The notes under the pieces: generated by a model
What the model was told of the DNA's origin: nothing
Database searches by the model: none
What the model saw: the letters and a program-made list of their open reading frames with translations, nothing else
Part shown: piece after piece, positions 1,394 to 18,032 of the stretch
Numbering within the stretch: position 1 is the stretch's first letter
How the letters are laid out: each line of letters starts with the position of its first letter
Program-made: the position numbers and the translations under genes
Source of the DNA: Candidatus Mcinerneyibacteriota bacterium
GTDB taxonomy: Bacteria; AUK180; JAQVHJ01
Direction of reading: 5' to 3'
DNA length: 18,071 nucleotides
Assembly: GCA_030630935.1 (NCBI GenBank)
Contig: DAOVMD010000011.1
Span: 1-18,071, forward strand

Positions 1394-1406
1394 GGAGGAA
1401 TCAATG
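1394..1406 (+). promoter_or_regulatory. Ribosome binding site fixing the TPR gene start at 1404
   Basis: GGAGGA (1394-1399) stands 4 nt before ATG 1404-1406. The open frame extends 27 codons further upstream to a TTG at 1323, but that TTG has no Shine-Dalgarno and lies upstream of the predicted transcription start. Confidence 0.85.
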
Positions 1407-4400
1407 ATTGATTATAGTGATGTCCCTTTAGAAAAGCAAATTCAGGATACAAAGGAAGAGATAATTGCTCATGGTGAGAGCTTTGAATTATTAAGTCGGA
1501 TGGGCGACTTATATTATCGACTTCCTAACCTTCAATTAGCTTTAGAGTGCTTTTTCAAATCGACAGAGTTTAGTAAAGATGTTCCTGATATCTATGGAAA
1601 GATAGCAATGATTTATACCGAGATGCTTGATTTCGAGAATGGAATAACATATCTGAACAAAGCCATTGCATTAGATCCTTCACAACCTGAATTTTATACA
1701 TTAGCTGGCGAGATTTACGAGGAGCAGGGTGAGATTGAAGAAGCTATTACATTTTTCAAGAAGGCGCTTGAGCTTGCCCCTGATAATAAAAAGATAATAA
1801 TTTCACTTGGTGATATTTATCTCAGGAATAACCGTACTGATGATGAAGCAATTAATATTTATGATAAAATGATTAAACTAGGTCGAGTAGATGCCAGAAT
1901 TGAGAAAAACATGCTGGATTATATTATGCAGATGGATGAAGTTAAGGAGGCGCATTTACCGATTCTTGAGAATGTTTATAAGAAAGATAAGAACATAGTA
2001 GTTCGCGGTAAGCTATCGGAAACTTATTTTCGATTAAATAGAACTGATGATCGTGCAAAGGATATTTATAATGATATTTTAAAGGAAGACCCGGATAATC
2101 TTCAGATCTTAGAGATTGTTTCAGATATTCAAGCCAAGAGCAATCTGATGCGGAAGGAAGACATTATTTTATATAAGCGTGCCTTTGAACACAAGGTTGC
2201 GCGGGAAGCAGTAATCAGGACTTTAGGTAAATATTTTATCAAGAAATATCAGATTGATCCTTTCTCGATAAGTGTACTTGAGAGATATTATCAATATGAA
2301 CCTGAATCAGAGCAGCTTATCAATATTCTTGCAGAGGCTTTCATTATACGAGATGAGTTGAATGAATTTGAGAGGAAAATTTTAAAGAAAGCTTATGTAT
2401 TAAATCCTGAATCAAAGAAGATTTTCTTAAAGCTGCTTCATTTAGGTGAACCTATCACAGCAGTTGGAGATAGTTCATTAGAGATGTATGAGAGACTTTA
2501 TGAAGATGACCCTGAAGATACGGATGTTATAACAATTCTTGGAAATGCTTACTTGAACTCGCGCAGGGTTGATATAGAAGCAATTAATATTTATGATAAG
2601 TTACTTAAGCTGGAACCGGAGAATAAAAGATTAATTGAGGTTCTGGCAAATAAATATGTTGAGATGAACTTAATTAGTCCTATTTCCCTGGAAGTATTCG
2701 AGAAAAGTTTTTTACTGGGGAATAGAGATGAGAGACTCTTCGAGATCTTATTCAATAAATTCTTCTCAGATGATAGGTTTGATAATCTTGCCATTCAACT
2801 TTATAAGGAATATTTCGAGAAATTTCGAAGTCCTGATTCCAGGAAGAAAGTATTAAACTTTCTTTTACCGAAATTTGAAACGGGGAAATATGTCCCTGAA
2901 GACTTAGAGTTCAAGCAGGAATTATTAAAGAATTGGTTATTTCTTCATCCGGAGAACCCCACAGTTCAAAAAGAGTTATTTGATATCTACAATTCAGTCC
3001 AGGCTTTAGACGAGACTGCTTTAAACCTCTACAAAATAATTTATAATACTAATCCCAAGGATATTGATAATCTTCTAATGTTAGCCAGGAGTTTCATTAA
3101 TCGTGGAACAATAAATGATGAAGTTGTAAAGATTTATATGGAAGCATATCCTCATATGCAGGATGAACCAATGTTAATTCTTTTACTTGCAGAATATTTC
3201 AGGGGTTCAGAGCAGAAGGATGATTTTGCAATCCATATAATTGAGAAGGCCGCGGAGTTAGAGAAAGACGGTTATAAGGCCAAGGGTAACATTGAGGATC
3301 TTTGTAAGATTTATCTTGGTAAGCAGAGAAAAGACGACGAGGCAGTCAAGATTTATAAAGATTATCTCGCGATTGACCCTAAAAATATCCCTGTTGTATT
3401 AATGCTCTCAGAGATTTATATTGAAGAAGATGATACATCAGATGAGGCAATGAACGTATTAGAATTAGGATATGGTTTTAAGCGTGACTATGCAAATCTA
3501 ATTAAATTATTAGCTAAATGCTTTTCAATCAGGGAACGGCAAGATGAGTTTGCATTTGAGGTTTATATCAAGGCGACTGATTATGGTTACCGTGAAAGTA
3601 GGATTATTCGATTAATTTTAACAAAGTTTATTCCCGAAGAGAGGAGCGATTCTGCTGCCTTAAGAATTTATGAAGTTGCTGAGGAATTAGGAATAATTGA
3701 TAGTAGTTTATACTATCTCATGGCAAAGTTATATTTTAATGATGGTAACTTTGAGAAGCTCATGAATATCCTTGATATTGTACAGCAGCAGCCGATTGAA
3801 TCCCCGGAAATAGTTTTATTTATTGCAAAGAGTTATATGGAGATCGCAGAATTTGATACTGTCACCCAGGTCATTTTGAATTTTGAACAAAAAACCCCGC
3901 AACTCCTTGTAATGCTTGCATACAGTTACTATCATAAGGGTGATTATGTAAACCTTGGTAATACTCTTGCGGAACTTTTTGAAGCGGATTACTCACCACC
4001 TCATGTTACGGAGATGTTTTCAGATTATTTTTATTATATAATTCAGGATATGAAGAAAGCGAAAGTTCCATTATCGAAATTAATTGCTGATGACGACCTT
4101 ATTGATAAGGAAGTTTTAATTAAGCTTGCGCGAATAAATTTTGTTTTAGAAGACTTCCAGGAATCCTTAAACTTGTACCAGCGCCTCCTGAAGACTGACC
4201 CTGAATTTATAGAAGCTTATCTTAAGATATCAGAGATTTATCTGAAGAAAGAACAATATTATGAGGCTCTGGATTTCTTAAAGAAATTGATTATTAAAGG
4301 ATATCATTCTCCAACTGTTTATATTAACATTGGTGATATTTACACTAAATTGGAGCAGGTAAACAGGGCAATTGATGCATACGAGAAGGCCATTGAAATT

Positions 4401-7400
4401 GAACCTAATAATGTTAAGTTTCATTATAAATTAGGTTATTTATATGTTCAGGAAGATTTAAAGGAATTTGCAATTGAGCATTTTAACAAAGCTCTTATTT
4501 TAGAAGATGATGATGCTGAGATCCTTCAGACACTTGCCGTAATTTATTATGAAGAGGAAAACACATCCGAAGCCGCCAAGGAAGTTTACGAGAAGTTATA
4601 TGACCAGAACCCTGGTAATATTGACATGAAGCTCATGCTTGCGCGGATTTATGCCATTAAGGGCCGGAATGACCCCGAAGCAATTGAGATGTATGAAGAT
4701 CTTATTAAGAATGATAAATCAAGTTATGAAATTAACCAGAGATTAAGTGAATTTTATATTTCTCAGAATATAAGTTCTCCGATTGCAATAAAATTAATTC
4801 GAAAAACCTTTGGTGAACGTACAGATAATAAGGTAATCCTTGACTATCTTGGGAATTATTATATTTCGAGGGAAGAGATTAATGAAGAAGTTGAAGCGGT
4901 ATACATGGAATTATTTAAGGAAGGTAAATGGAAAGAGAAATCCGGATATCTACTTGCAAAGGTATATACAAAACAGGGGAAGTATGAAGAAGCAATCCCA
5001 TACCTTGAAGAAGTTATCTTTATTAATCCATATAATGAGAATATTTATATTTTGCTCGGTGAAATTTATTTCCATATTGAGAAATATGATTTATCTAAGA
5101 AAAGACTTAACAAAGCAATTCAATTAAACCCCAAAAACTCAGAAGGTTATTATCTTTTAGGCTTAGTAGAAGCAAAGCAGCAGAATAAGATGTTTGCAAT
5201 TGACTTATTGAAGAAGGCATTAGAAATTATGAATAGGGGAGTTTATATCGCTGCACTTGCTCAGATTCATCATGATCTTGACAAGATTGACGACGCGACG
5301 ACTTTAATGAAGAAGGCAATTAAAATTGCCCCTGAGATTGTCGAGAATCATTTCTTACTTGGTCTATGGTATTTTGAAACTGAAGAGAATGACCGGGCTC
5401 GGGAGTATTTTAACTACTGTATTAAAGCAGACCCGAGTAATATTAAGTATCAAATTTATCTTAACAGGAATCTCTCAAAATTAATGATGTTCCAGGAAGC
5501 AATTAATAATCTTGCTAAATTAGAGATGCAGAAGGAAGTTCTAATTGAACTCGGTAAAATTTATATACTTGCAGGTCGACATGACGAAGCGAAGAGTGTT
5601 TATTCAGAAGCTGTAGGTATCGATCCAAATTGTATTGAAGCCCGGGATGCATTAGGAGTAATGTATTTCGATATTGATAAATCATTCCAATCAGCAACAG
5701 GTGAATTCGAACAGATTCTAATGATCGATGAAGAGCATCAGAATGCAAATTTATATTTGGGCCGGTTGGAATATTCTAAACAACCCAGAAATTATCAATT
5801 AGCAATTAAGCATTGGGAAAAGGTTGACAGGATTGAAGATTCTAAAACAAGATTTGCTTTCGGTCATTCATATTTCCAAATGAGGAATTTTTCCAAAGCA
5901 CTTTCAACATTACTGAAACTTTCTGCGGTTGAATTTAATCCTGACGCATTATTACTCCTTGGTAAAATCTATGAAGAACTTGGTGATTATCAGAATGCAT
6001 TTAATATTTACAAAAAGATAATTGATAAGGAGAATAAATATCAGAATGCCTGGTATTGCTTAGCTGACCTTACTGATAAGCTTAATCAGATTGATGATTC
6101 TAAAGATTATTATACATATATCATTACAAACATTAAGAAGGACCCTGAAATTTATAAAAGGCTCGGTGAATTATTCATATATCACTTTGCAAATAATAAA
6201 TTTTCAATCGAAGGATTTGAAAGATATGTCGAGTTGAAATATAAAGATAATATTACAAAAATTCCCCCGGACCTGGTTCGGATAATTTCTCTTGTCTATC
6301 TGAAAGAAAAAGACTTCCAGAAATCAAGGAATTATGCTGCAACCCTCACAAAAGGTAAAGATTTTACTGAATTTATTCTGAGTATAAATAATTATCAAAT
6401 GGAGGACTGGGAACTTTGTTATAATCACCTTAGCATTTTATCTGAAAGATATTCAGCACAAAAATGGTTTATTCCATATCAGATCACTTTAGCAGAAGTT
6501 CAGGAGTATCGAGGGAAGTATGCGGAAGCTTTAAAGATTTATGAACAGGTCTTATTATTGGACCCAAAACTTTCAGAAGAAATTTATTTTAGATTTGCAC
6601 ATATCATCTACAATCTAATCAGGGAAGTAAAACGTAGAGAATGGGTACATTCAATCAAGGAGAAAAAACCCAAGAAAATTGATAATTTCATTATGGATAG
6701 TATTGAAGAAATTATCAAATTAGTTCAGAAATCCAAGTTATTAAAGAGGACGGAAAAGCAATTTTCTTCAGAAGAAACATATCTTAAAATTCTTGCGAGC
6801 TACAGTTTATCAATCAAGGATTTTTCCTATGCAAAGAAGAGATATAAAATACTCTCTAAGAATGATAAATTTGAGGTATTTGGAAAGATTAAACTTATTC
6901 AGACGGAATTCCTGAATAAGTTAGACTCTAATAAGGGTTCAAAATCAAAGAAGAAACCTGATTACACAAAATATGAAAAGGAACTTTTAAAAGTTTTAAA
7001 AGCGTCTCCGGATAATTATGACGGTGTCTTATTAAAATATGAGTTGAAAAAGCAGAGGAATAAGCAGAAAGCCATACAGATTCTTCGAGATGCCTTCTTT
7101 AAAATAAATGATCCTGGTAAGAAGATGGATATCCTGATGAGAACAGTTGATGAATTATTAAAGCTTGGTGATAATGAGAATTCAATTCAGATTCTAAAAG
7201 ATGTTTTAACTTCTGCCCCCAAATTTATTCCTGCAATTATCAGGTTATCAAAAGTTTATTTTAATATAAAGGATTACAAGGAAGCTTCTAAATATATTGG
7301 GAAACTACCTTTTATTTTACATCTTGAAGATGAATTTTTCATAATGAAACTTGTAACAAATTTCAATCTTAATAACTATACTCAGGTTCTTGAACAATTT

Positions 7401-10400
7401 GTATTTACCGATTTCTCAATGGATATGTGGCTTGAAGATAATCCGAATTATTTTATTTATGTTGCGTATTCTCTTTTTAAGCTGGGTTCAATCCTCAAAG
7501 CACATGAGATAGTTGAGAAATATAAAGCTGATAATCGAAATGAAGATTATTATCTTTATTATCCTGAGATGCTTCAATTCAAAGATGATAAATCTACTGC
7601 AAACAAGTTACTACTTGAGGGTATAAAAGAATTTTCAAACTCAATAAGAATAAAGAAACTTTATATTGATAACCTTATTCTCATGGAGAAGTATCATGAT
7701 GCAGAAACTTTTTACAATACTTTTAATGACGAATTAAAGAATGATTCAGAAGTCTTATTTTCAATTGCTCAGCTTGAGGAGAAATTAAAAGATTATTCTT
7801 CAACTGAGAGTATGTTAATAAATATCCAGGAAAAGCTTAAAGACCCACTCAAGGGTGAAGAGCTTCTAGCAAATGTATATATAAAAACTGGAGATATAAG
7901 TAATGCAATTAGATTACTTGAATCAGTTCGAAAAAAGTATGTTGACAGATTTGATACAGTTAAAGAGACATTAATTCCACATCTATATTTATTTTCAAAA
8001 GACCCTCTGAGTATTGAGAGAATTAAATTATTTGAAAAGATTAAGGACTTGGACTATAAACTTGTAGAGTTATATCAGACGCATAAGGAATATGATAAAT
8101 TTGAAGATACCGTTAAGTCTCTAATTGATCGATTTCCCAATGATACAGCTCTCTATTATAAAATTATTAAAATCAGGATTGAAAAACTTGATGAACCACA
8201 AGGAACTATTGATTATATCAACTCAATCTTAGACTTTTCGCCTGATGCACCTGAAGCAAAGTATTATAAGGCTTTTATTTATTCCAATATCCTTAATGAA
8301 ACTGAGAATGCTTTGGATCTAATGAAAGAAGTTATCAGCAAGAAGGAAGAGGTAAAATACCTGATTCTTTTAGGTGAGATTTACCTTAAGATGGAAAGAA
8401 CCACGGATGCAGTTGATATGTTCTCAATTGTAATTGAAAGAGAACCTGAGAATTTTAAAATATATAAACTCCTGAGCGAGATAGAATTTAATGCAGAGAA
8501 CTTTGATAAATCTCTTGAGTTAATTAATAAAGCAATTGATATGGGCCTGAATAAAGATGAGGTTCTTGAGCAGATGGCTAATATCTATGTTAATACAAAT
8601 CGATATGAAGAAGCGATTGCAGTTTTTGAAGAGTTATTAGATAAGGGAATTGGTGAAGGTAATATTCATGCACAGCTTGGTGCGGCTTATTTAATGCTTG
8701 GGAATAATGTGAAAGCACAGCAGAATCTTATGCATTCAATTGAACTTGATCAAAGTGCCGGGGAGTGTTTTTTCAAGATGGGAGAGATATTCCTTAAACA
8801 AAAGAAATTTGTCCAATCAATTAAAACTCTTGAGAAAGCTAAGGAGAAAAAGTTTGATGATCAGAACCTGCATTTTTATTTAGGGGTTGCTTATCATAGT
8901 ATTAAGAAGGAAGACCTTGCCCAAAGAGAATTTGAGATTGCATTGCAGGATCAGCGTGACGACTATTTCGTTCACAAATACCTTGGTGAAATTTATTTCT
9001 ATCAAGAGAAATATGAGAAAGCCGCGATTGAATATTCCAGGGCTCGTGAGATTAACCCGAAGAAAATCGAAATTTATTCTTTTCTTGCTCGATCTTATCT
9101 TGAGACTAAAGAGTACCAGAAGGTCATTGAGTTGGTTGATTATGTTTTGAAATTTGAGAAGCAAAATATTCAATTACATATTATGAAATGTTCAGCTTTA
9201 TTCCAGCTGGAGAAATATGAAGATGCAGAGAAGATACTAACACAAGTATTGAAAGTTGATTCAAATAATCAGGACGCTTTAAATCTAATTGGTAAAATAT
9301 TCTTCTCCCGTGAATTACATAATGAATCACTTAGATATTTTGAGAAGTCTTTAGAACTTAATCCAAATAACTTTGATGCATTGAAATACTCAGGTATGAT
9401 TAATCTTCATAAATTCCGCCTTAAACTTGCAGAAGAGCAGCTGTATAAAGCTCAATACTTATTCAATGCGGATCCTGATATTCCACTCCTGCTTGGGAAT
9501 ATTTTTATGAAGGAATCCAAATGGATCGATGCAATTATTCAGTTTAGAAAAGCAATAAAATTAAATATCACTAATTATGAAGCCTTTGTAGGTTTGGGCG
9601 ATATTTATCAATTTAAGCAGCGCTGGCCAGAAGCAATCCAGGAATACGAGAGGGTACTAACGTTTAATTATTACCTTCCTAATATCCATTATAACCTCGG
9701 TAGATTATATGAAAAGATTTCGATGCCTGATAAAGCGGAGCAATATTATCGTCAAACAATCAAAATGGACCCTGAGAATTATTCAGCAATGGAGAAACTC
9801 GGATTATTATTAATCTCTCAACACAGATATAATGAAGCTCTGACTTTTGTAATAAATGCTCTTACAAAAGAACATGATAATGTAAAAATTATGATTCAGT
9901 TAATTGACTGTTATCGTAATTTAGACCAACTTGACCAGGCAAAGAAAATTCTCAATCAGGCAAGTGAACTTGCCCCGGATGATTTTGATTTAATTAAGGC
10001 CTGGGGTGATTACCATCTTGATCTTGAGAATCTTAAAGATGCAAGGAAGAGTTATGAAGCATTAATTCTGAAAGACCCTGATTATATCCCGGCATTACTT
10101 AAACTGGGTCATATCTATACAGGTTTGAAGGATTACGAAAAAGCAGAGGAGTTATATAAAAAGATAATTAGAATGACTGCTACTAGAAAGGATATTGCAT
10201 TTTACGGTTTAGGATTTCTTTATGAGGATCAAGGTGATAACGAAAATGCAATACAATGGTATCTCCGGGCGATTTCTGAGAATAATAATTACCTGGCTCC
10301 TTTATTACGACTGGGAAATATTTATTATAATGAAGGCAATTTTATCAGGTCTATTGATTATTGGGAGAATGCAATTAAACAAGGGGTTGACGAGACCGAA

Positions 10401-11042
10401 GTATTTTATTACCTGGGAAATGCATACCTGAAGATTGAAGAGAATATTAAGGCATTAAATATTTTTGAAGAGGGTAGAAAACGCAGTCAGGATCTACAGT
10501 TTAATTATGGAATTGTTGAAACATACTTATCTCTAAAACAATATGAACTTGCTCTTGAACTTTTAAAGAACCTCAAGATGAAGGATAAAGATGAATCTGA
10601 ATCATTGCATCTTTTCATGAGTAAAGTTTATATTCACTTGAATCAACCGGAAAAAGCTCTAATAGAAAATTATATTCTATTTAAAAAGGGTGTTAATCAG
10701 ATTGATTCGATGTTCCAGGTCGCGAAGATCTATATTAATTTTTTAAATAGACCGCAAGCAGGTAATTACATTTTAGAGAAACTTGTTAAAGGTGAACCGG
10801 ATAACTTGAACTTCAACACTTGGTTATTTGAGAGTTATAGAAAACTCGGGAACTTTGAAAAAGCAGAAGACCTCCTGAGAAAAGTTAATGCTTTTGAAGA
10901 AAAATCTCCGGAACTTTATGTTGCGATTGGTAAATTCCATGAAGATAGGGGAGATAAGAAGCTGGCTAGAGATGCATATATAAACGCTCTTAATATTAAT
11001 CCTCATCTTGAAGAGATACAGGATAAACTTGGAAATCTTTAA
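1404..11042 (+). CDS. Giant tetratricopeptide-repeat protein (3,212 aa)
   Basis: A single uninterrupted frame begins at ATG 1404, with no signal peptide or membrane segment, so it is probably cytoplasmic. Helical-hairpin repeats start near residue 25 and reach the C-terminus. Canonical TPR motifs (W/Y-x2-LG-x3-Y...A-x3-F/Y-x2-AL-x3-P) are clearest at about 25-150, 940-1070, 1190-1330 and throughout 2320-3212. Much of the first 900 residues has degenerate units built on D-x2-A-I-x-I-Y, spaced about 35-36 residues. Basic, lysine-rich interruptions at about 1740-1790 and 1841-1855 divide it into two superhelical halves. Arithmetic allows about 90 repeat units. No enzymatic domain is visible. TPR arrays are protein-binding scaffolds, so a role in assembling or tethering a large complex is inferred, with partner unknown. 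It is transcribed from its own promoter, and its stop overlaps the VanZ-like gene by one base. Confidence 0.93.
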   Translation: MIDYSDVPLEKQIQDTKEEIIAHGESFELLSRMGDLYYRLPNLQLALECFFKSTEFSKDVPDIYGKIAMIYTEMLDFENGITYLNKAIALDPSQPEFYTLAGEIYEEQGEIEEAITFFKKALELAPDNKKIIISLGDIYLRNNRTDDEAINIYDKMIKLGRVDARIEKNMLDYIMQMDEVKEAHLPILENVYKKDKNIVVRGKLSETYFRLNRTDDRAKDIYNDILKEDPDNLQILEIVSDIQAKSNLMRKEDIILYKRAFEHKVAREAVIRTLGKYFIKKYQIDPFSISVLERYYQYEPESEQLINILAEAFIIRDELNEFERKILKKAYVLNPESKKIFLKLLHLGEPITAVGDSSLEMYERLYEDDPEDTDVITILGNAYLNSRRVDIEAINIYDKLLKLEPENKRLIEVLANKYVEMNLISPISLEVFEKSFLLGNRDERLFEILFNKFFSDDRFDNLAIQLYKEYFEKFRSPDSRKKVLNFLLPKFETGKYVPEDLEFKQELLKNWLFLHPENPTVQKELFDIYNSVQALDETALNLYKIIYNTNPKDIDNLLMLARSFINRGTINDEVVKIYMEAYPHMQDEPMLILLLAEYFRGSEQKDDFAIHIIEKAAELEKDGYKAKGNIEDLCKIYLGKQRKDDEAVKIYKDYLAIDPKNIPVVLMLSEIYIEEDDTSDEAMNVLELGYGFKRDYANLIKLLAKCFSIRERQDEFAFEVYIKATDYGYRESRIIRLILTKFIPEERSDSAALRIYEVAEELGIIDSSLYYLMAKLYFNDGNFEKLMNILDIVQQQPIESPEIVLFIAKSYMEIAEFDTVTQVILNFEQKTPQLLVMLAYSYYHKGDYVNLGNTLAELFEADYSPPHVTEMFSDYFYYIIQDMKKAKVPLSKLIADDDLIDKEVLIKLARINFVLEDFQESLNLYQRLLKTDPEFIEAYLKISEIYLKKEQYYEALDFLKKLIIKGYHSPTVYINIGDIYTKLEQVNRAIDAYEKAIEIEPNNVKFHYKLGYLYVQEDLKEFAIEHFNKALILEDDDAEILQTLAVIYYEEENTSEAAKEVYEKLYDQNPGNIDMKLMLARIYAIKGRNDPEAIEMYEDLIKNDKSSYEINQRLSEFYISQNISSPIAIKLIRKTFGERTDNKVILDYLGNYYISREEINEEVEAVYMELFKEGKWKEKSGYLLAKVYTKQGKYEEAIPYLEEVIFINPYNENIYILLGEIYFHIEKYDLSKKRLNKAIQLNPKNSEGYYLLGLVEAKQQNKMFAIDLLKKALEIMNRGVYIAALAQIHHDLDKIDDATTLMKKAIKIAPEIVENHFLLGLWYFETEENDRAREYFNYCIKADPSNIKYQIYLNRNLSKLMMFQEAINNLAKLEMQKEVLIELGKIYILAGRHDEAKSVYSEAVGIDPNCIEARDALGVMYFDIDKSFQSATGEFEQILMIDEEHQNANLYLGRLEYSKQPRNYQLAIKHWEKVDRIEDSKTRFAFGHSYFQMRNFSKALSTLLKLSAVEFNPDALLLLGKIYEELGDYQNAFNIYKKIIDKENKYQNAWYCLADLTDKLNQIDDSKDYYTYIITNIKKDPEIYKRLGELFIYHFANNKFSIEGFERYVELKYKDNITKIPPDLVRIISLVYLKEKDFQKSRNYAATLTKGKDFTEFILSINNYQMEDWELCYNHLSILSERYSAQKWFIPYQITLAEVQEYRGKYAEALKIYEQVLLLDPKLSEEIYFRFAHIIYNLIREVKRREWVHSIKEKKPKKIDNFIMDSIEEIIKLVQKSKLLKRTEKQFSSEETYLKILASYSLSIKDFSYAKKRYKILSKNDKFEVFGKIKLIQTEFLNKLDSNKGSKSKKKPDYTKYEKELLKVLKASPDNYDGVLLKYELKKQRNKQKAIQILRDAFFKINDPGKKMDILMRTVDELLKLGDNENSIQILKDVLTSAPKFIPAIIRLSKVYFNIKDYKEASKYIGKLPFILHLEDEFFIMKLVTNFNLNNYTQVLEQFVFTDFSMDMWLEDNPNYFIYVAYSLFKLGSILKAHEIVEKYKADNRNEDYYLYYPEMLQFKDDKSTANKLLLEGIKEFSNSIRIKKLYIDNLILMEKYHDAETFYNTFNDELKNDSEVLFSIAQLEEKLKDYSSTESMLINIQEKLKDPLKGEELLANVYIKTGDISNAIRLLESVRKKYVDRFDTVKETLIPHLYLFSKDPLSIERIKLFEKIKDLDYKLVELYQTHKEYDKFEDTVKSLIDRFPNDTALYYKIIKIRIEKLDEPQGTIDYINSILDFSPDAPEAKYYKAFIYSNILNETENALDLMKEVISKKEEVKYLILLGEIYLKMERTTDAVDMFSIVIEREPENFKIYKLLSEIEFNAENFDKSLELINKAIDMGLNKDEVLEQMANIYVNTNRYEEAIAVFEELLDKGIGEGNIHAQLGAAYLMLGNNVKAQQNLMHSIELDQSAGECFFKMGEIFLKQKKFVQSIKTLEKAKEKKFDDQNLHFYLGVAYHSIKKEDLAQREFEIALQDQRDDYFVHKYLGEIYFYQEKYEKAAIEYSRAREINPKKIEIYSFLARSYLETKEYQKVIELVDYVLKFEKQNIQLHIMKCSALFQLEKYEDAEKILTQVLKVDSNNQDALNLIGKIFFSRELHNESLRYFEKSLELNPNNFDALKYSGMINLHKFRLKLAEEQLYKAQYLFNADPDIPLLLGNIFMKESKWIDAIIQFRKAIKLNITNYEAFVGLGDIYQFKQRWPEAIQEYERVLTFNYYLPNIHYNLGRLYEKISMPDKAEQYYRQTIKMDPENYSAMEKLGLLLISQHRYNEALTFVINALTKEHDNVKIMIQLIDCYRNLDQLDQAKKILNQASELAPDDFDLIKAWGDYHLDLENLKDARKSYEALILKDPDYIPALLKLGHIYTGLKDYEKAEELYKKIIRMTATRKDIAFYGLGFLYEDQGDNENAIQWYLRAISENNNYLAPLLRLGNIYYNEGNFIRSIDYWENAIKQGVDETEVFYYLGNAYLKIEENIKALNIFEEGRKRSQDLQFNYGIVETYLSLKQYELALELLKNLKMKDKDESESLHLFMSKVYIHLNQPEKALIENYILFKKGVNQIDSMFQVAKIYINFLNRPQAGNYILEKLVKGEPDNLNFNTWLFESYRKLGNFEKAEDLLRKVNAFEEKSPELYVAIGKFHEDRGDKKLARDAYINALNINPHLEEIQDKLGNL

Positions 11043-11395: not shown

Positions 11396-11501
11396 CATTG
11401 AGGAGTTTATTAAATTTAGGGAAGAGATGAATAAGAAGATTTTGGAATCGGATAATATAATAATTAAAAGAGCTGTAACATTGTTGCTTGACACTGAATA
11501 A
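11385..11501 (+). pseudogene. 38-codon ORF resembling the truncated N-terminus of a carboxymuconolactone decarboxylase-family (AhpD-like) protein
   Basis: ATG 11385 is preceded by AAGGAG (11371-11376) and overlaps the end of the VanZ-like gene by 11 nt; the stop is TAA 11499-11501. The peptide follows a pattern F-x3-R-x2-MN-x2-IL-x2-DN-x3-KR...LDT, which I recognise from the first ~40 residues of CMD/AhpD-like proteins of about 110 residues. The catalytic part of that family (with its C-x2-C motif) is absent, and the next bases are promoter sequence. I infer a deletion remnant. It might still be translated as a small protein, given the good Shine-Dalgarno. The resemblance is from memory and covers only a short stretch. 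Confidence 0.5.
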
Positions 11502-11517
11502 ATGATTATGTTATAAT
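11488..11517 (+). promoter_or_regulatory. Near-perfect sigma-70 promoter for the two-component operon
   Basis: -35 TTGACA (11488-11493) and -10 TATAAT (11512-11517) are both exact consensus, with an 18-nt spacer and TGT immediately before the -10 (TGn extension). The predicted transcript starts near 11524, just ahead of AGGAGG. The -35 lies within the last codons of the 38-codon remnant. Such a strong promoter suggests substantial constitutive expression of the kinase and regulator, unless repressed. Confidence 0.8.
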
Positions 11518-11537
11518 TTAGGTAGTTCCAAATTTCC

Positions 11538-11552
11538 AGGAGGTTTTTGTTG
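11538..11552 (+). promoter_or_regulatory. Shine-Dalgarno and TTG start of the histidine kinase
   Basis: A full AGGAGG (11538-11543) precedes tandem TTG codons at 11547 and 11550, and no ATG is nearby. Spacing is 3 nt to the first and 6 nt to the second, so I chose 11550. A non-AUG start behind a perfect Shine-Dalgarno and a near-consensus promoter may hold kinase output below regulator output. Confidence 0.7.
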
Positions 11553-12986
11553 GAAGTACAATTTAAACAACGACTTCAATTTAAACTTATAATTGTATTC
11601 ATTCTGTATTCCTTTCTTATAATTACGATCAGTGCTGTTTATGCATATAAAAACTTAAAGACACTCTTAGATGTCGATCTTGGAAGAAGGTTGATTCAAA
11701 CAAGTATTTCGTTAAGTGAAACAATCTTGCCATTTCAACTTTCACTTGGTCACGGTTCTGAAGAGACTAAGACTTATAAAAACCTTCAAAAACGATTAAC
11801 TTCTTATATTAAAACATTTGATTTAAATTATATGATTATTCTATCCCTGGACGGAAATGTTCTTGTCGCACCATATAATGATTATAAAATTGGAGATAGT
11901 TATGAACTCATTAAACTTGATGAAGAGGAATTCGAATTAGTAAAAACTGGGATTGCAGTAGATTCTATGCTGTATATTGGAAAAGATGGTAAGTATTATA
12001 AATCTGCTTTTATTCCGATTAAAGATAAAGGTGATCAGGTTATTGCGATTATTGCAACTGAAGCATCGGCAAAGTTCCTGACTACATTAGATAAAATCAA
12101 AAATATCTTTGTTACAAGTGAGATCATTGCTTTTATTATTTCACTTCTGATCGGTTGGTTAATAGGGAAGTCTTTAACTTATCCCCTTAATAAAGTTGTT
12201 TCAGGACTTCAAGAGATTGGAGAAGGTGACCTGGAACATGAAATAATTGTTACAACTAAAGATGAAATAGGTTTTCTTGCACATTCATTTAATTTAATGG
12301 TAAAAAAATTAAAAGAGAGAGATTCAGAACTAAAACAATTAGCAGCCGGAGTTGCTCACGAGGTTAGGAATCCGTTGATGGGTATTAAAGGAAGTATAAC
12401 TTTAATTTCCCGGAATATTCAGGATGAGGAATCAAAGGAGCTGATTGTGAATATTATTAATGAGATCAGGTCACTTGAGAAACTCGTAAATGAATTCCTG
12501 ATGTTTGCAAGGTTTTCAACTCCTGTTTTTAATAAAATAAATATTATTCCTGTTTTAGAACAGGTACTTTGCTTATCTTCCGAAATCTTTGATAATAAAA
12601 GGATAAAAATTAAAAGGTCTTTTCCGACTGAACTTGAAATTGAGTGTGATGCAGATAAAATTAAACAGGTATTTACTAATATTTTTCAGAATGCAGTTGA
12701 TGCAATTGAAGAGAAGGGCGTGATAAAAATTTCCATTTTAGAGTTTAAAGATGATATTAAAATTGAGATTTCTGATTCGGGAAAAGGTATTGAAGTTGAA
12801 TCAGTTGAACAATTATTAGAGCCATTTTTTACTACAAAAGAAAAAGGTACAGGTCTTGGGTTAGCAATTGTTAAAAAAATTATTGAACAGCACTCGGGTA
12901 AAATTGCTTTAGCTCCAAATAGACCAAGAGGATTAGTTATAACTATTTTATTACCAAAAATAAATTCAAAGCAATTCAGGAGTTAG
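11550..12986 (+). CDS. Membrane sensor histidine kinase, NtrB-like transmitter, partner of the downstream regulator
   Basis: This is a 478-residue protein (TTG at 11550). The N-terminal membrane helix spans about 12-33, an extracytoplasmic sensor region about 34-186, the second helix about 187-207 and HAMP about 208-258. The HisKA H-box has phospho-acceptor His270 in AAGVAHEVRNPL, the form typical of NtrB-class kinases. The ATPase domain shows the N-box (N377/N381 in NIFQNAVDAI), G1 DSGKGI (409-414), F-box PFFTT (425-429) and G2 GTGLGLA (433-439). All catalytic elements are intact. It should autophosphorylate on His270 and pass phosphate to the regulator whose ATG is 1 nt past its stop. The sensor region is unassigned; its size and placement between two helices suit a Cache/PAS-like fold, but no ligand motif is visible. 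Confidence 0.93.
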   Translation: MEVQFKQRLQFKLIIVFILYSFLIITISAVYAYKNLKTLLDVDLGRRLIQTSISLSETILPFQLSLGHGSEETKTYKNLQKRLTSYIKTFDLNYMIILSLDGNVLVAPYNDYKIGDSYELIKLDEEEFELVKTGIAVDSMLYIGKDGKYYKSAFIPIKDKGDQVIAIIATEASAKFLTTLDKIKNIFVTSEIIAFIISLLIGWLIGKSLTYPLNKVVSGLQEIGEGDLEHEIIVTTKDEIGFLAHSFNLMVKKLKERDSELKQLAAGVAHEVRNPLMGIKGSITLISRNIQDEESKELIVNIINEIRSLEKLVNEFLMFARFSTPVFNKINIIPVLEQVLCLSSEIFDNKRIKIKRSFPTELEIECDADKIKQVFTNIFQNAVDAIEEKGVIKISILEFKDDIKIEISDSGKGIEVESVEQLLEPFFTTKEKGTGLGLAIVKKIIEQHSGKIALAPNRPRGLVITILLPKINSKQFRS

Positions 12987-12987
12987 A

Positions 12988-14364
12988 ATGAAGAATCTTT
13001 TAATTGTAGATGATAATAAAACAATATGTGATATCTTAATAAAAACTCTAAGTAGAAAAGAGATTAAAATTTTTGTTGAGTCCAATGGTGAGGATGCCAT
13101 TTCCACGTTAAAGGAACAGGAAATTTCAGTAGTTGTAACTGACTTAAAACTTCCGGGGAAATCAGGCTTAGAGATACTTGATTTTGCAATGGCGATGGAG
13201 TCGTCTCCTGAAGTAATCTTGATTACTGCATTTGGTACAGTCGAAACAGCGGTTCAGGCAATGAAGAAAGGAGCTTTTGATTTCGTACTAAAACCATTTG
13301 AACTTGATGAAATTGAAGTAAAGTTTGAGAAAGCTCTCGAGAGTTGGAATTTAAAGAAAAAGAATGTTGTATTGGAACATGAGAATGTATATTTAAAAGA
13401 ACAACAGAGTGAAAGATTTAATTTTAATGAGATCATTGGAGTTTCTAATGCAATTAAAGCAGTTTTCGAGTTAGTAAAAAAAGTATCCCAATCAAAAACT
13501 TCTATCTTAATCCGGGGTGAAACAGGTACAGGAAAAGAGTTGATTGCAAGAGCAATTCATTTTAATTCTGAACGGAAAGATAAACCTTTTGTCAGAGTTA
13601 ATTGTGCAGCGCTTGCCCCCGGAGTTCTTGAGTCAGAGTTATTCGGGCATGAAAAGGGGTCTTTCACCGGTGCAGATTATAAAAGGATTGGGAGGTTTGA
13701 ACTTGCAAATGAAGGTACAATCTTCCTTGATGAGATTGGAGATCTGCCAATGGGTACGCAGATAAAATTATTAAGGATTATTCAAGAACGTGAATTTGAG
13801 AGAGTCGGGGGGAATAAAACTATTAAAGTAGATGTTCGATTGATTGCAGCAACAAATCAGAACCTGGAAGAGAGGATTAAGAAAAGAACTTTCAGGGAAG
13901 ATCTATTTTATAGAATAAATGTTGTTCCTATGTTTGTACCGCCTTTAAGAGATAGGAAAAAAGATATTCCGCTTCTGGTTAAGCATTTCCTAAAGAGGTT
14001 CTCAAGAGAAATGGGTGTAGAAGAGAAAAGCTTGTCTGATAATGCAATAAAAAAATTAACTGATTATGGTTGGAAGGGAAATATTAGAGAATTGGAAAAT
14101 GTGATTGAAAGGATTGTTGTATTATCTCAGGATTCTTTTATTGATATTAATGACCTTCCATTTGAACTACAAGCAAATGTAATGGTCGACTTATCTAAAT
14201 TAGAAAACCAAACTCTTCCTGAATTGATTGAAGAATTTGAAAAAGGTATAATCTCAAAGTTACTTGTTGAGGAGAATGGAAAGAAATTAAATGTTGCAAA
14301 AAGACTCGGTATTAAGTCCAGCACTCTTTACTATAAGATAGAGAAACTTGGACTTTCTGATTAA
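12988..14364 (+). CDS. NtrC-family sigma-54-dependent response regulator
   Basis: This 458-residue protein has three domains. The receiver (1-120) has acidic pair D8/D9, phospho-acceptor D52 (VVVTDLKLPG), T80 and K102. The AAA+ sigma-54 interaction domain (about 146-375) shows Walker A GETGTGKE (177-184), a GAFTGA-type loop reading GSFTGA (224-229), Walker B TIFLDEIGDL (244-253), sensor-I region RLIAATNQN, and GNIRELEN (364-371). The C-terminal Fis-type helix-turn-helix (about 412-455) ends in the recognition helix region IKSSTLYYKIEKLG. All hallmarks of an active, phosphorylation-controlled sigma-54 activator are present. AGGAG (12978-12982), inside the kinase's last codons, serves its ATG. 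The sigma-54 promoter 150 bp beyond its stop is its likely target (inference from position). Confidence 0.95.
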   Translation: MKNLLIVDDNKTICDILIKTLSRKEIKIFVESNGEDAISTLKEQEISVVVTDLKLPGKSGLEILDFAMAMESSPEVILITAFGTVETAVQAMKKGAFDFVLKPFELDEIEVKFEKALESWNLKKKNVVLEHENVYLKEQQSERFNFNEIIGVSNAIKAVFELVKKVSQSKTSILIRGETGTGKELIARAIHFNSERKDKPFVRVNCAALAPGVLESELFGHEKGSFTGADYKRIGRFELANEGTIFLDEIGDLPMGTQIKLLRIIQEREFERVGGNKTIKVDVRLIAATNQNLEERIKKRTFREDLFYRINVVPMFVPPLRDRKKDIPLLVKHFLKRFSREMGVEEKSLSDNAIKKLTDYGWKGNIRELENVIERIVVLSQDSFIDINDLPFELQANVMVDLSKLENQTLPELIEEFEKGIISKLLVEENGKKLNVAKRLGIKSSTLYYKIEKLGLSD

Positions 14365-14435
14365 AATTTTAGAAGATCTTTCAAAATTCTGAATTGTTTT
14401 TTTTAATTTTTTTAAAAATCATGAAAAAACAGGTA

Positions 14436-14451
14436 AAAAATACGTATTTTT
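14436..14451. promoter_or_regulatory. Perfect 16-bp palindrome, candidate activator site
   Basis: AAAAATACGTATTTTT is fully self-complementary and is centred about 97 bp upstream of the predicted sigma-54 transcription start, within the usual range for enhancer sites of NtrC-family activators. It is A/T-rich, so chance is a real alternative. Confidence 0.4.
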
Positions 14452-14457
14452 GGATAT

Positions 14458-14474
14458 TTCCGCAATATACGGAA
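14458..14474. promoter_or_regulatory. Inverted repeat TTCCG-N7-CGGAA, candidate activator site
   Basis: The arms TTCCG (14458-14462) and CGGAA (14470-14474) are separated by 7 nt. The centre is about 74 bp upstream of the predicted sigma-54 start. Dyads with G/C-containing arms about 12 bp apart centre-to-centre fit a dimeric Fis-type HTH site. Assignment to the adjacent regulator is inference. Confidence 0.45.
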
Positions 14475-14513
14475 TTATTTTTGTATTTATTTCAGATTGA
14501 AATATTTATATTA

Positions 14514-14529
14514 TGGCACAATTTATGCT
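14514..14529 (+). promoter_or_regulatory. Sigma-54 (-24/-12) promoter for the exported-protein cassette
   Basis: TGGCACAATTTATGCT matches the -24/-12 consensus TGGCAC-N5-TTGCW except for one base, with the invariant GG (14515-14516) and GC (14527-14528) exactly 10 nt apart. The predicted start is near 14540. It stands directly downstream of the gene for a sigma-54 activator and upstream of three co-directional genes with no other evident promoter. Confidence 0.8.
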
Positions 14530-14559
14530 ATTAATAATTGTGAAACTATGGTGTTTAGA

Positions 14560-15432
14560 ATGAAAAGTTACAAGTTGTATCTTATGACATTTCTGATTTT
14601 AATTCTTATCTCCCAGGTTGCTGCTGCATTTCATCCGGTCGAGATTAATAATGTTGATATTATTAAACTGCGTAATGAAGTGAAGAACTTAGAGGAGAAG
14701 ATTAAGGATATTGAAAATGAGATAAAGGAATATACTAATATAATTGATGGACTCTCTAAAGATAAAGCTAAATTAAAGAAGCAATATAAGAAAAAACCAT
14801 CCCCATTTCTTGAGACAAGATTAAATAAAGTTTTGAGTGAACTGCGCTATAAAATTGAAGAGATGAATAAATTAGAAGTTGATAAGAATATAAAGAAAGA
14901 ACAACTTAAAAAAGTTGGGATTGAATTAATAATATTATTAAGTAATGAAATCGGGGATTTATTAACTGAAATCAGCGACTTAGAAAAGAAGAATGAGACC
15001 AGCGGAATTTTTGAAAAGATTGAAATTATTTTGAAGATTCAGGAAGAGATAAATTATTTATATAAAAATATTAATGAGAAATATCCTGAGGTTTCAAAAG
15101 TTGTTATAGAGATTGATGATGATGATTCACCTGAGATTCTAAATGAGAAATTGGATTTTGTAAATGATCAATTATTTCTATTAAATATCCGGGAGCAAAG
15201 ATTAAAAGCCAATCGTGACCGGTTACTCCTGGAATATAAAATTCTTCAACTGCTTATTGATTTTTACAATGACCCTTCAACTGAGAAGGAAGAGATGTTT
15301 GATCAGATGGAGATAATTTCAGTTCAGATAGAAGAATTAAATAATTCATTTAAGAAAAATAAGGAATTAATAGAAACGAATAATAAATTAAAACTTGAGA
15401 TAACAGAATATTTAAAAAATTCAGGAGGATGA
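14560..15432 (+). CDS. Exported coiled-coil protein (cassette gene 1)
   Basis: I place the start at ATG 14560 (290 residues). The open frame runs further upstream, but those codons overlap the sigma-54 promoter, and ATG 14548 is too close to the predicted transcript start. Residues 1-23 form a signal peptide (lysines at 2 and 5, hydrophobic LMTFLILILISQV, then AAA before F24). The mature protein is almost entirely charged heptad-like helix: coil one about 33-145, a helical segment about 150-175, an acidic hinge EIDDDD (184-189), and coil two about 192-286, ending SGG. Lys and Glu dominate and Cys is absent. No named family is recognised. A periplasmic rod or tether between membranes, or a chaperone-like coil for the following secreted proteins, would fit, but this is inference. 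AGGAGG for the next gene lies in its last codons. Confidence 0.8.
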   Translation: MKSYKLYLMTFLILILISQVAAAFHPVEINNVDIIKLRNEVKNLEEKIKDIENEIKEYTNIIDGLSKDKAKLKKQYKKKPSPFLETRLNKVLSELRYKIEEMNKLEVDKNIKKEQLKKVGIELIILLSNEIGDLLTEISDLEKKNETSGIFEKIEIILKIQEEINYLYKNINEKYPEVSKVVIEIDDDDSPEILNEKLDFVNDQLFLLNIREQRLKANRDRLLLEYKILQLLIDFYNDPSTEKEEMFDQMEIISVQIEELNNSFKKNKELIETNNKLKLEITEYLKNSGG

Positions 15433-15433
15433 T

Positions 15434-16180
15434 ATGAAAGGAATTTTGTTATTTGTGATTTTAGTTTTATTAATGCCCGTGGCATTCGGGGAGAATAATC
15501 TATTAAATGAAGATATTGACCCGGAGAGACGTGAAGAGTTAATTGAATACCTCGAGGATAGAGATGACTATAGCGATTACTTAATAAAGAAAATGCTTAA
15601 ATCACAACGTGATGAAAATTTATTTATACTTGATCGTGAACTTGGATTTTTGACAACATTCGAAGGTAGATCATTTTATGTGGAAAGAGTATATGAAAAT
15701 TTTCAAATGCATATATTTGACATAAAAACCGGAAAACAATTAATGTCAATTCCTTATATTTCAATTCAGGAATATTCAATTGATGAAGCAGGGGAATTTT
15801 ATATTGCTGTTCTTGAAGATGGTACAATTATCAAAATTCCAATTTTCATAAATGAATCAAATTTTAGTGATATTACAATCACTGATCAGTATGGAAACCC
15901 TATTGATATTCAATTCTCTCCTATATATTCTGATTTTGGTATAATTGGCGCACGGCTGCAATTGGGAAATAATGTTATATTTGATTATAAAAATCCACTC
16001 TATGGAAATTCAGGTGTCACAATTTTCGGGGATGTCAGTGATGATGGGATAGGTGATTTATACACGAAAGAAAAGTTCGTTTTATATATGAACTATTCCC
16101 TGGATCTTGATGAAGACGATGATGAGGACGATAAGAATGATCCCGATGATAAAGATAAGAAAAAAGATAAAGAAAAGTAA
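15434..16180 (+). CDS. Secreted protein with acidic/lysine tail, unknown function (cassette gene 2)
   Basis: This 248-residue protein has a signal peptide (hydrophobic ILLFVILVLLMPVAFG, cleavage near 19/20). A helical acidic segment (about 28-60) is followed by a beta-rich region (about 62-190) with repeating strand-turn pieces such as FDIKTGKQLMSIPY and EFYIAVLEDGTIIKIPI, reminiscent of propeller blades but too short for a whole propeller. GDVSDDGIGDLY (199-210) resembles Asp/Gly calcium-binding loops of the dockerin or FG-GAP type. The last 25 residues are almost only D, E and K, acidic first (224-239) and then lysine-rich (240-248). The start is set by AGGAGG (15423-15428) 5 nt before ATG, and the previous stop is 1 nt away. 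No family is recognised. Location is probably periplasmic or surface. Confidence 0.8.
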   Translation: MKGILLFVILVLLMPVAFGENNLLNEDIDPERREELIEYLEDRDDYSDYLIKKMLKSQRDENLFILDRELGFLTTFEGRSFYVERVYENFQMHIFDIKTGKQLMSIPYISIQEYSIDEAGEFYIAVLEDGTIIKIPIFINESNFSDITITDQYGNPIDIQFSPIYSDFGIIGARLQLGNNVIFDYKNPLYGNSGVTIFGDVSDDGIGDLYTKEKFVLYMNYSLDLDEDDDEDDKNDPDDKDKKKDKEK

Positions 16181-16216
16181 ATGAAAAATAATTCAAATTA
16201 TAAAGGAAAAAAGTAA
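16181..16216 (+). other. 11-codon mini-ORF exactly bridging cassette genes 2 and 3
   Basis: An ATG directly abuts the stop of gene 2 (TAA-ATG) and encodes MKNNSNYKGKK, and its own stop again abuts the ATG of gene 3 (TAA-ATG). The 13-mer AAAGTAAATGAAA occurs at both junctions. It has no independent Shine-Dalgarno; the AAAGGA inside it probably serves gene 3. It could aid re-initiation or be the product of a small duplication. Coding function is unproven. Confidence 0.3.
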
Positions 16217-17356
16217 ATGAAATGTAGAAGAAAAATTCAATTCTTATTCTTGTTATTTCTGATATTCTTAGTTCCAATTACAATATCAGCAAAAGAGAAA
16301 TATGAACTTAGTATTGATGAATTTATTTTGTATGACGATTTCTACAGTATCTACCAGGATTCCATAAAAATGGAATTGAAACATAAATCATACGAAACAT
16401 ATAAAGCAATCGGTTCTATGAACTTTGAATCAGAGATAAAATACCAGAATGGTGAAACTGTCGAAGAATCTTTATGGCATTTAGAAACATTTTCAATTCA
16501 ACACCGTTATGTACTTAGTACAAAGTGGAAAGTAAGGTTAAAATCCGAACTGGCCTATGACCATCATTATGATCCGTTATTCCGGAATACTACTTTTTCT
16601 AATGCGATAACATTCTACTATTATTATAATCTATTCTTTTACCTTAAACTGGAGTTTCAACTTCAAAAGGAATATTATACTGAATCCAGTATCCTTGATA
16701 ATCGTTCAAAGCAACTCCTGCTAAAAATTATGAAGAGACAATCAGTATTTAATTCTTATTATATTATGCTAATTGCAGGCGAGAGGAATCTCCCGTTTTG
16801 GCCCATCCCGAACGTATCCTCAGTGAGTAATAGAGTTGATAGTAATTTTAATCTGGTATTCTCAAATATCAATAGCGTTACAAAGAAAATATTTAATGAA
16901 TTTAATTTCCAGTTAGAATTTTATAAATCAAATATTAATGCTTATGAACTCTATAATATCGGTCCATACTTCCTGTTTGAATTCCCTGATGATAACTCGG
17001 AAACTAGAAAATTGATCAATGATTATTTTAATTATTACTTAAGAAAATTCTCGAATGTTACAACTTTTATTTTACCAAAAGATTATATCTTCCAGTTGAG
17101 TTTAACGTATCAATTGAAAGATTATCAGTCTAAAAATGCAAGAAACGAATTAGGGGTAATTAAAAAAACTAAAGAATGGGATGAGCAATATAATTTTTCT
17201 GTTAATATCATGAAGAATAAATTATTCTCAAAAAAAATATCCCTGAAATTCGGAATGCTTTACCAGGTAAGTTCATCAAATAATAAATTTAATCAATATT
17301 ACCTTTATGACGGGGAAAGATATTTGTTTACTCTTGGAATCAGCTGGAGAATGTAG
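16217..17356 (+). CDS. Predicted outer-membrane beta-barrel protein (cassette gene 3)
   Basis: This 379-residue protein has a signal peptide (MKCRRK, then hydrophobic FLFLLFLIFLVPITISA, cleavage near 25/26). The mature protein is rich in Tyr, Phe, Asn and Ser, with many amphipathic alternating segments ending in turns, for example WKVRLKSELAYDHHYD, FYLKLEFQLQKEYY, NEFNFQLEFYKS, FQLSLTYQLKDY and KISLKFGMLYQVSS. It closes with a final strand YLFTLGISWRM. This is the layout of outer-membrane barrels, though the last residue is Met after Trp-Arg rather than the usual terminal aromatic. No named family is recognised. It could be a porin-like channel or the surface anchor for the two exported proteins encoded before it (inference). 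A moderate AAAGG precedes ATG 16217. The gene ends at TAG 17354-17356, which overlaps a strong hairpin. Confidence 0.75.
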   Translation: MKCRRKIQFLFLLFLIFLVPITISAKEKYELSIDEFILYDDFYSIYQDSIKMELKHKSYETYKAIGSMNFESEIKYQNGETVEESLWHLETFSIQHRYVLSTKWKVRLKSELAYDHHYDPLFRNTTFSNAITFYYYYNLFFYLKLEFQLQKEYYTESSILDNRSKQLLLKIMKRQSVFNSYYIMLIAGERNLPFWPIPNVSSVSNRVDSNFNLVFSNINSVTKKIFNEFNFQLEFYKSNINAYELYNIGPYFLFEFPDDNSETRKLINDYFNYYLRKFSNVTTFILPKDYIFQLSLTYQLKDYQSKNARNELGVIKKTKEWDEQYNFSVNIMKNKLFSKKISLKFGMLYQVSSSNNKFNQYYLYDGERYLFTLGISWRM

Positions 17357-17382
17357 GTTCGATTAACTCTGTTAATCGAACC
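17356..17382 (+). terminator. Hairpin at the end of the exported-protein cassette
   Basis: GGTTCGATTAAC (17356-17367) and GTTAATCGAACC (17371-17382) form a perfect 12-bp stem with a 3-nt loop. The stem begins on the G of the stop codon of cassette gene 3. No T-run follows, so it may act as a 3' stabilising hairpin or a Rho-assisted terminator rather than a classical intrinsic terminator. Confidence 0.6.
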
Positions 17383-17791: not shown

Positions 17792-17841
17792 AATATGGGG
17801 ATTAAAAATATTTTTTTCTTTTCTTTTTATTTTTCTCTGCG

Positions 17842-17909
17842 TCCGGAGTTTATCCCGGATTCACTTCGGAGTGTACGGAGTTTACCCCGTTTTTTCGGGG
17901 CGGTGAATA
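17842..17909. repeat. Dispersed element copy 2, with CCCCG-T6-CGGGG hairpin
   Basis: TCCGG-N8-CCGGA (17842-17859) is followed by CCGGATTCACTTCGG (17856-17870), the exact reverse complement of a 15-mer in the element at 1010-1063. Then comes CGGAGTTTACCCCG, a T6 run, and CGGGGCGGTGAA (to 17908), nearly identical to 1032-1062. The CCCCG/CGGGG arms (17885-17900) form a hairpin over the T6 loop. Confidence 0.65.
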
Positions 17910-18032
17910 TTTTTACATTCGCTTATTTAATAAGTACCTTCAGCTCAAAATAAGTGCAGCATAATAATTAAAGCAAAAACATTATTCATTTTTCATTGTT
18001 CACTTTTCATTCTTATCCCGATGTTAAAAAAT

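Follow-up and report, generated by a model that had tools for sequence, protein, structure and literature searches.

We describe a bacterial locus in which a sensor histidine kinase, an NtrC-type activator and three exported proteins are encoded side by side, and the persistence of this arrangement among relatives supports the view that they constitute one conserved unit. The locus lies in a window of 18,071 bases (the whole stretch of DNA that was analysed, contig C376 of a 3.16 Mb draft genome that is ~80% complete) and was compared across seven genomes of the class (G000–G006), several of them fragmented, which yielded six complete copies of the unit from two families. In all six (G000–G005), seven genes are kept on one strand in the order TPR–VanZ–kinase–regulator–P4–P5–P6. 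The nearest relative, G001, belongs to the family of the window, and the four further genomes with a full unit represent a second, sister family of the class; the genes flanking the unit differ between the two families. An initial annotation, made from the sequence of the window, had proposed a self-contained module of five genes, from the kinase to P6, at 11488–17382. All five are intact where it placed them, as both Pfam and the gene coordinates confirm, and they stay together as part of the larger unit in the six genomes with a complete copy, in none of which P4–P6 are found apart from the regulator. The proposed extent has to be revised, however, since the conserved unit begins with the TPR gene at 1404. 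The elements of the locus are the following.

1335–1363, + strand: sigma-70-like promoter before the TPR gene, TTGACT-17-TACTAT, with 3 mismatches to consensus
1404–11042, + strand: giant TPR protein, 3212 aa; the ATG at 1404 was chosen over the mechanical TTG start at 1323; the TPR gene has the same position in L013–L017
11042–11395, + strand: VanZ-like membrane protein, 117 aa (Pfam PF04892, 47.2 bits against a gathering cut-off of 30.1), syntenic in 7 of 7 genomes
11488–11517, + strand: sigma-70 promoter before the kinase gene, TTGACA-18-TATAAT, matching the consensus at 12 of 12 positions
11547–12986, + strand: sensor histidine kinase (Pfam HAMP, HisKA and HATPase_c) with two TM segments
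12988–14364, + strand: NtrC-type response regulator (Pfam receiver, Sigma54_activat (AAA+) and Fis-type HTH)
14458–14474, + strand: inverted repeat TTCCG-CAATATA-CGGAA, its core CAATATACG conserved in G001, ~40 bases upstream of TGGCAC
14513–14529, + strand: -24/-12 sigma-54 promoter ATGGCACAATTTATGCT, GG at 14515–14516 and GC at 14527–14528, predicted start ~14540
14560–15432, + strand: P4, signal-peptide protein of 290 aa, mostly coiled coil (alternative start at 14548)
15434–16180, + strand: P5, signal-peptide protein of 248 aa with a beta-rich core and a charged (D/K-rich) tail, of a family found only in this lineage
16217–17356, + strand: P6, signal-peptide protein of 379 aa, likely an outer-membrane beta-barrel, as judged from homology of its C-terminal half and composition

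The seventh genome, G006, contributes a 3.4-kb contig with the VanZ, kinase and regulator genes; because this contig stops 149 bases past the regulator, the missing TPR and P4–P6 genes are uninformative there. G004 also contains the P4 frame, which a longer antisense frame overlies. The TPR and VanZ-like proteins, conserved as they are, may only be bystanders of P4–P6.

Pfam domains agree with the identities that had been given to the kinase and its activator, and the features that define an NtrC-type two-component system were found: a regulator with receiver, AAA+ and Fis-type HTH, a partner kinase with HisKA and HATPase_c, rpoN (present in 7 of the 7 genomes of the class) and, in the family of the window, a -24/-12 site. 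The sigma-54 activator domain of the regulator is intact, its loop reading GSFTGA in this family and GAFTGA in the others, and the periplasmic region of the kinase gave weak matches to Cache. No counterpart of the sigma-70 promoter before the kinase gene was seen in G001.

The gap between the regulator and P4 holds ATGGCACAATTTATGCT, the sole site in the window to score at least 24.5 of 28 in a scored scan, and when the gap was shuffled 5000 times with dinucleotides preserved, no shuffle reached that score. At the same spot in G001, TTGGCACAGAAAATGCC is the only strong -24/-12 site in 14.5 kb, with a score reached by 1 of 5000 shuffles. The well-formed sigma-54 promoter that had been proposed here is thereby borne out, and the start expected near 14540 agrees with the position predicted from ATGGCACAATTTATGCT. 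The inverted repeat at 14458–14474 is a candidate activator-binding site or, alternatively, a candidate terminator of the kinase–regulator operon; the combination of CAATATACG with TGGCAC occurs once each in the genome of the window and in G001, and is absent from the other five genomes of the class. Elsewhere in the lineage, most strong sigma-54 sites precede genes, which suggests that these organisms make use of the motif, and sigma-54 in general has been linked with regulation of the cell exterior (PMC3162934). Gene content, synteny, domain identities and the sequence and conservation of the promoter are observed, whereas activation of this promoter by the adjacent regulator is what we infer. 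That a local control circuit operates in the family of the window is very probable. The likely target promoter of the regulator can be named to the base, which offers a handle on the envelope biology of an uncultured lineage.

The two families differ in the way in which the cassette is tied to its regulator. In the second family, P4 shares 4 bases with the end of the regulator gene and P5 shares ~14–20 with P4; the unit looks like a single operon throughout, preceded by a sigma-70-like sequence near the start of the TPR gene, and the scored scan returned no strong sigma-54 site within the unit or upstream of the TPR gene. Since the cassette there runs on directly from the regulator gene without a strong sigma-54 site, the dedicated promoter is specific to one family, whereas cassette and regulator are linked in both. 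The promoter was either gained in the family of the window or lost in the second family, whose regulator, given the lack of a strong site at the cassette, may act elsewhere. The comparison thus points to regulatory rewiring, with the cassette in the operon of the regulator in one family and behind its own sigma-54 promoter in the other.

P4, P5 and P6 each have a signal-peptide-like segment at the N-terminus. All three effector genes are under selection at the protein level, as judged from codon comparison with G001, in which position 2 differs at 0.11–0.26 of sites and four-fold sites at ~0.7. In Pfam and NCBIfam, all three proteins stay below the curated cut-offs. The sequences of P4 and P5 fit their earlier descriptions as, respectively, a coiled coil with a signal peptide and a secreted protein with a charged tail, here a D/K-rich one following a signal-peptide segment. 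For the proteins that occupy the P4 place in the two families, homology was not demonstrable (hhalign probability 0.7%). Pfam matches of P4 to MscS_porin and others (E 0.003–0.5) were dismissed as coiled-coil noise, and a 221-aa exported protein encoded after the NtrC gene in G070 was compared with P4 and showed no relation to it. P5, in turn, shares 64% identity with its counterpart in G001 and 28–29% with those of the second family; ~380 other genomes gave only three near-threshold matches over short stretches, and when 84,980 species were scanned with a pattern, a search of limited reach, all hits were members of this lineage. The structure model of P5 has a mean pLDDT of 46 and is poor outside residues 108–188. 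Two assignments of P5 were rejected: that to FecR-domain proteins (hhalign 1.5% against FecR sequences, aligning the signal peptide only) and that to beta-propellers, for which many WD40 chains appeared among the Foldseek hits at E ~1e-3, but with a TM-score of ~0.15 on a model of pLDDT 46. The initial annotation had recognised none of the three effector families. This remains true of P4 and P5, for which HMM searches gave no confident match to a known family, and no longer of P6, whose C-terminal half falls in a wider barrel superfamily. A lineage-wide conserved locus is thereby defined, two of whose protein families are matched by no database model.

P6 shares 55% identity with its counterpart in G001 and 22–25% with those of the second family. 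The C-terminal half of P6 shows homology to a superfamily (alignment A6; hhalign 98.3%, E 2e-14, with searches in both directions) whose members are barrel-like, measure ~400 aa and occur in ~4% of the other genomes searched, while its N-terminal half is not alignable. P6 is a distant member of this outer-membrane barrel superfamily, and superfamily homology and composition make the barrel predicted for it at the outset likely as well. The count of amphipathic strands was no better than in shuffled sequences (287 of 1000 reached it), and the single-sequence structure model has a pLDDT of 33. P6-like barrels in other lineages have FecR, kinase and NtrC genes as neighbours in G070 (L088), FecR and kinase genes in G341 (L104) and an NtrC gene in G350 (L103). 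A recurring barrel–FecR–NtrC unit may exist in these lineages; the pattern comes from few of them and does not amount to a test. Other P6-like barrels stand beside CHASE2 cyclases, in G189 and on contig C251 of G000, where a second P6-like barrel gene directly precedes that of a CHASE2 adenylate/guanylate cyclase (L091, 455–3600).

On the basis of these data, we consider it probable, taking the circuit and the envelope function together, that the locus encodes a two-component system with a set of envelope proteins under its own control. The kinase would sense a periplasmic signal via its Cache-like region and phosphorylate the NtrC-type regulator, which in the family of the window would switch on the promoter at 14513–14529, such that P4, P5 and P6 would be made only with the signal; in the sister family, P4–P6 would be expressed from an operon shared with the regulator. 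Of the exported proteins, P4 and P5 would reach the periplasm and P6 the outer membrane, with the VanZ-like protein in the inner membrane and the TPR protein as a cytoplasmic scaffold, localisations that we infer together with the joint function of these proteins. The exported proteins would most likely assemble or maintain a structure of the surface or envelope, in an amount tuned to the state of the envelope; "envelope (stress) response", as a description of the locus, is unproven, and so is the suggestion of the initial annotation that the set could span the envelope as one structure. A more specific proposal, which we regard as unlikely, is an undescribed, lineage-specific trans-envelope assembly in which the TPR scaffold, the VanZ-like protein, the periplasmic coiled coil with P5 and the outer-membrane barrel would be joined, their state being read by the kinase of the locus and the outer parts made on demand via sigma-54.

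In its layout the locus is reminiscent of a known type of surface-control system. In the PEP-CTERM system, PrsK, PrsR and PrsT (a kinase, an NtrC-type regulator and a TPR gene) accompany sigma-54 sites before exported proteins (PMC1569441), much as the tandem kinase and NtrC-type regulator described here have a TPR gene alongside and a sigma-54 site before exported proteins. Alternatively, then, the locus may govern exopolysaccharide or surface proteins in the manner of PrsK/PrsR/PrsT, the NtrC system and the TPR protein controlling an EpsL-like barrel and helpers for export or anchoring. This analogy draws on the TPR protein, which scores 619.8 bits against PrsT (TIGR02917, cut-off 312.2), and on P6, whose C-terminal half shares its superfamily with one member that matches EpsL (TIGR03014). 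The PrsT score, however, is summed over 13 stretches, so that the TPR match is inflated by repeats, and the cut-offs for MamA and PilW are passed as well; the TPR protein greatly exceeds the 899 positions of the PrsT model in length and carries neither a lipoprotein signal nor any other export signal. The EpsL model gave no match to P6, that of the P6 homologue in L086 is weak (E 7e-6, 25.3 of 275 bits), and a further difference from EpsL is that no polysaccharide genes lie beside P6; glycosyltransferase genes, likewise, were noticed neither within the unit nor as a shared feature of its flanks. The regulator scores 407.8 bits against PrsR (TIGR02915), below the cut-off of 502.6, and has AtoC as its best match. 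Control of this kind is, on balance, an unlikely alternative to the preferred reading. Membership in the PEP-CTERM/exosortase system proper was ruled out, given that the exosortase EpsH/Xrt (PF09721) is absent from 7 of 7 genomes and that the regulator falls short of the PrsR cut-off; the exported proteins, too, match no PEP-CTERM model.

Two other known systems bear a partial likeness to the locus. AtoS/AtoC and ZraS/ZraR, which are among the best full-length matches of the kinase and regulator, likewise exert local control of a sigma-54 promoter, but the scores fall far short of the curated cut-offs (484.7 against 714 for AtoC), and the neighbouring genes are unrelated. The BiofilmReg operon of Burkholderia, which encodes a CreB-family regulator, a LysM/FecR protein and a CHASE2 kinase (PMC5192318), also unites two-component genes with exported proteins lacking an assigned function, but contains neither a barrel nor a sigma-54 activator.

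P4–P6 could also lie on the input side of the circuit, as a sensing arm in which the barrel and its periplasmic partners signal to the kinase and the sigma-54 promoter provides positive feedback. The placement of the trio in an overlapping operon with the kinase and regulator in the sister family, as for sensor accessories, somewhat favours this arrangement, and so do the related barrels of G070 and G341, whose genes directly precede that of a kinase and adjoin that of a FecR protein. In the family of the window, by contrast, the trio has its own promoter of an inducible type, more typical of output genes, and no sensor-accessory fold was found; we regard a sensing role as rather doubtful. That the genes are unrelated chance neighbours is extremely improbable, as seven of them stand together in six genomes of two families despite changing flanks.

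Several further observations concern the surroundings of the unit and its lineage. Neither a signal peptide nor a TM segment was found in the TPR protein of the window; its counterpart in G003 measures ~3140 aa when the coordinates of L059 and L015 are joined. In L059, L060 and L061, a sigma-70-like TTGAAA-17-TAAAAT/TACAAT stops a few bases 5' of the TPR ATG, a spacing that suggests a leaderless TPR transcript. Perfect -24/-12 sites lie ahead of Hsp20-like genes in six genomes of the class (L039, L040, L045, L047, L048, L056), with a DnaK-like gene just 3' of the Hsp20-like gene in L047 and L056 (product names assigned by eye, not by family search), which suggests that heat-shock genes are under sigma-54 in the lineage. 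Directly 3' of P6, a hairpin GTTCGATTAAC-TCT-GTTAATCGAAC at 17358–17382, which has no T-run, possibly marks the end of the operon. Finally, similar GC-richer stretches (CCCGTTTTTTCGG..GCGGTGAA) lie near both ends of the contig, at ~1010–1065 and 17840–17910 of the window, and may represent a dispersed repeat that perhaps caused the contig breaks.
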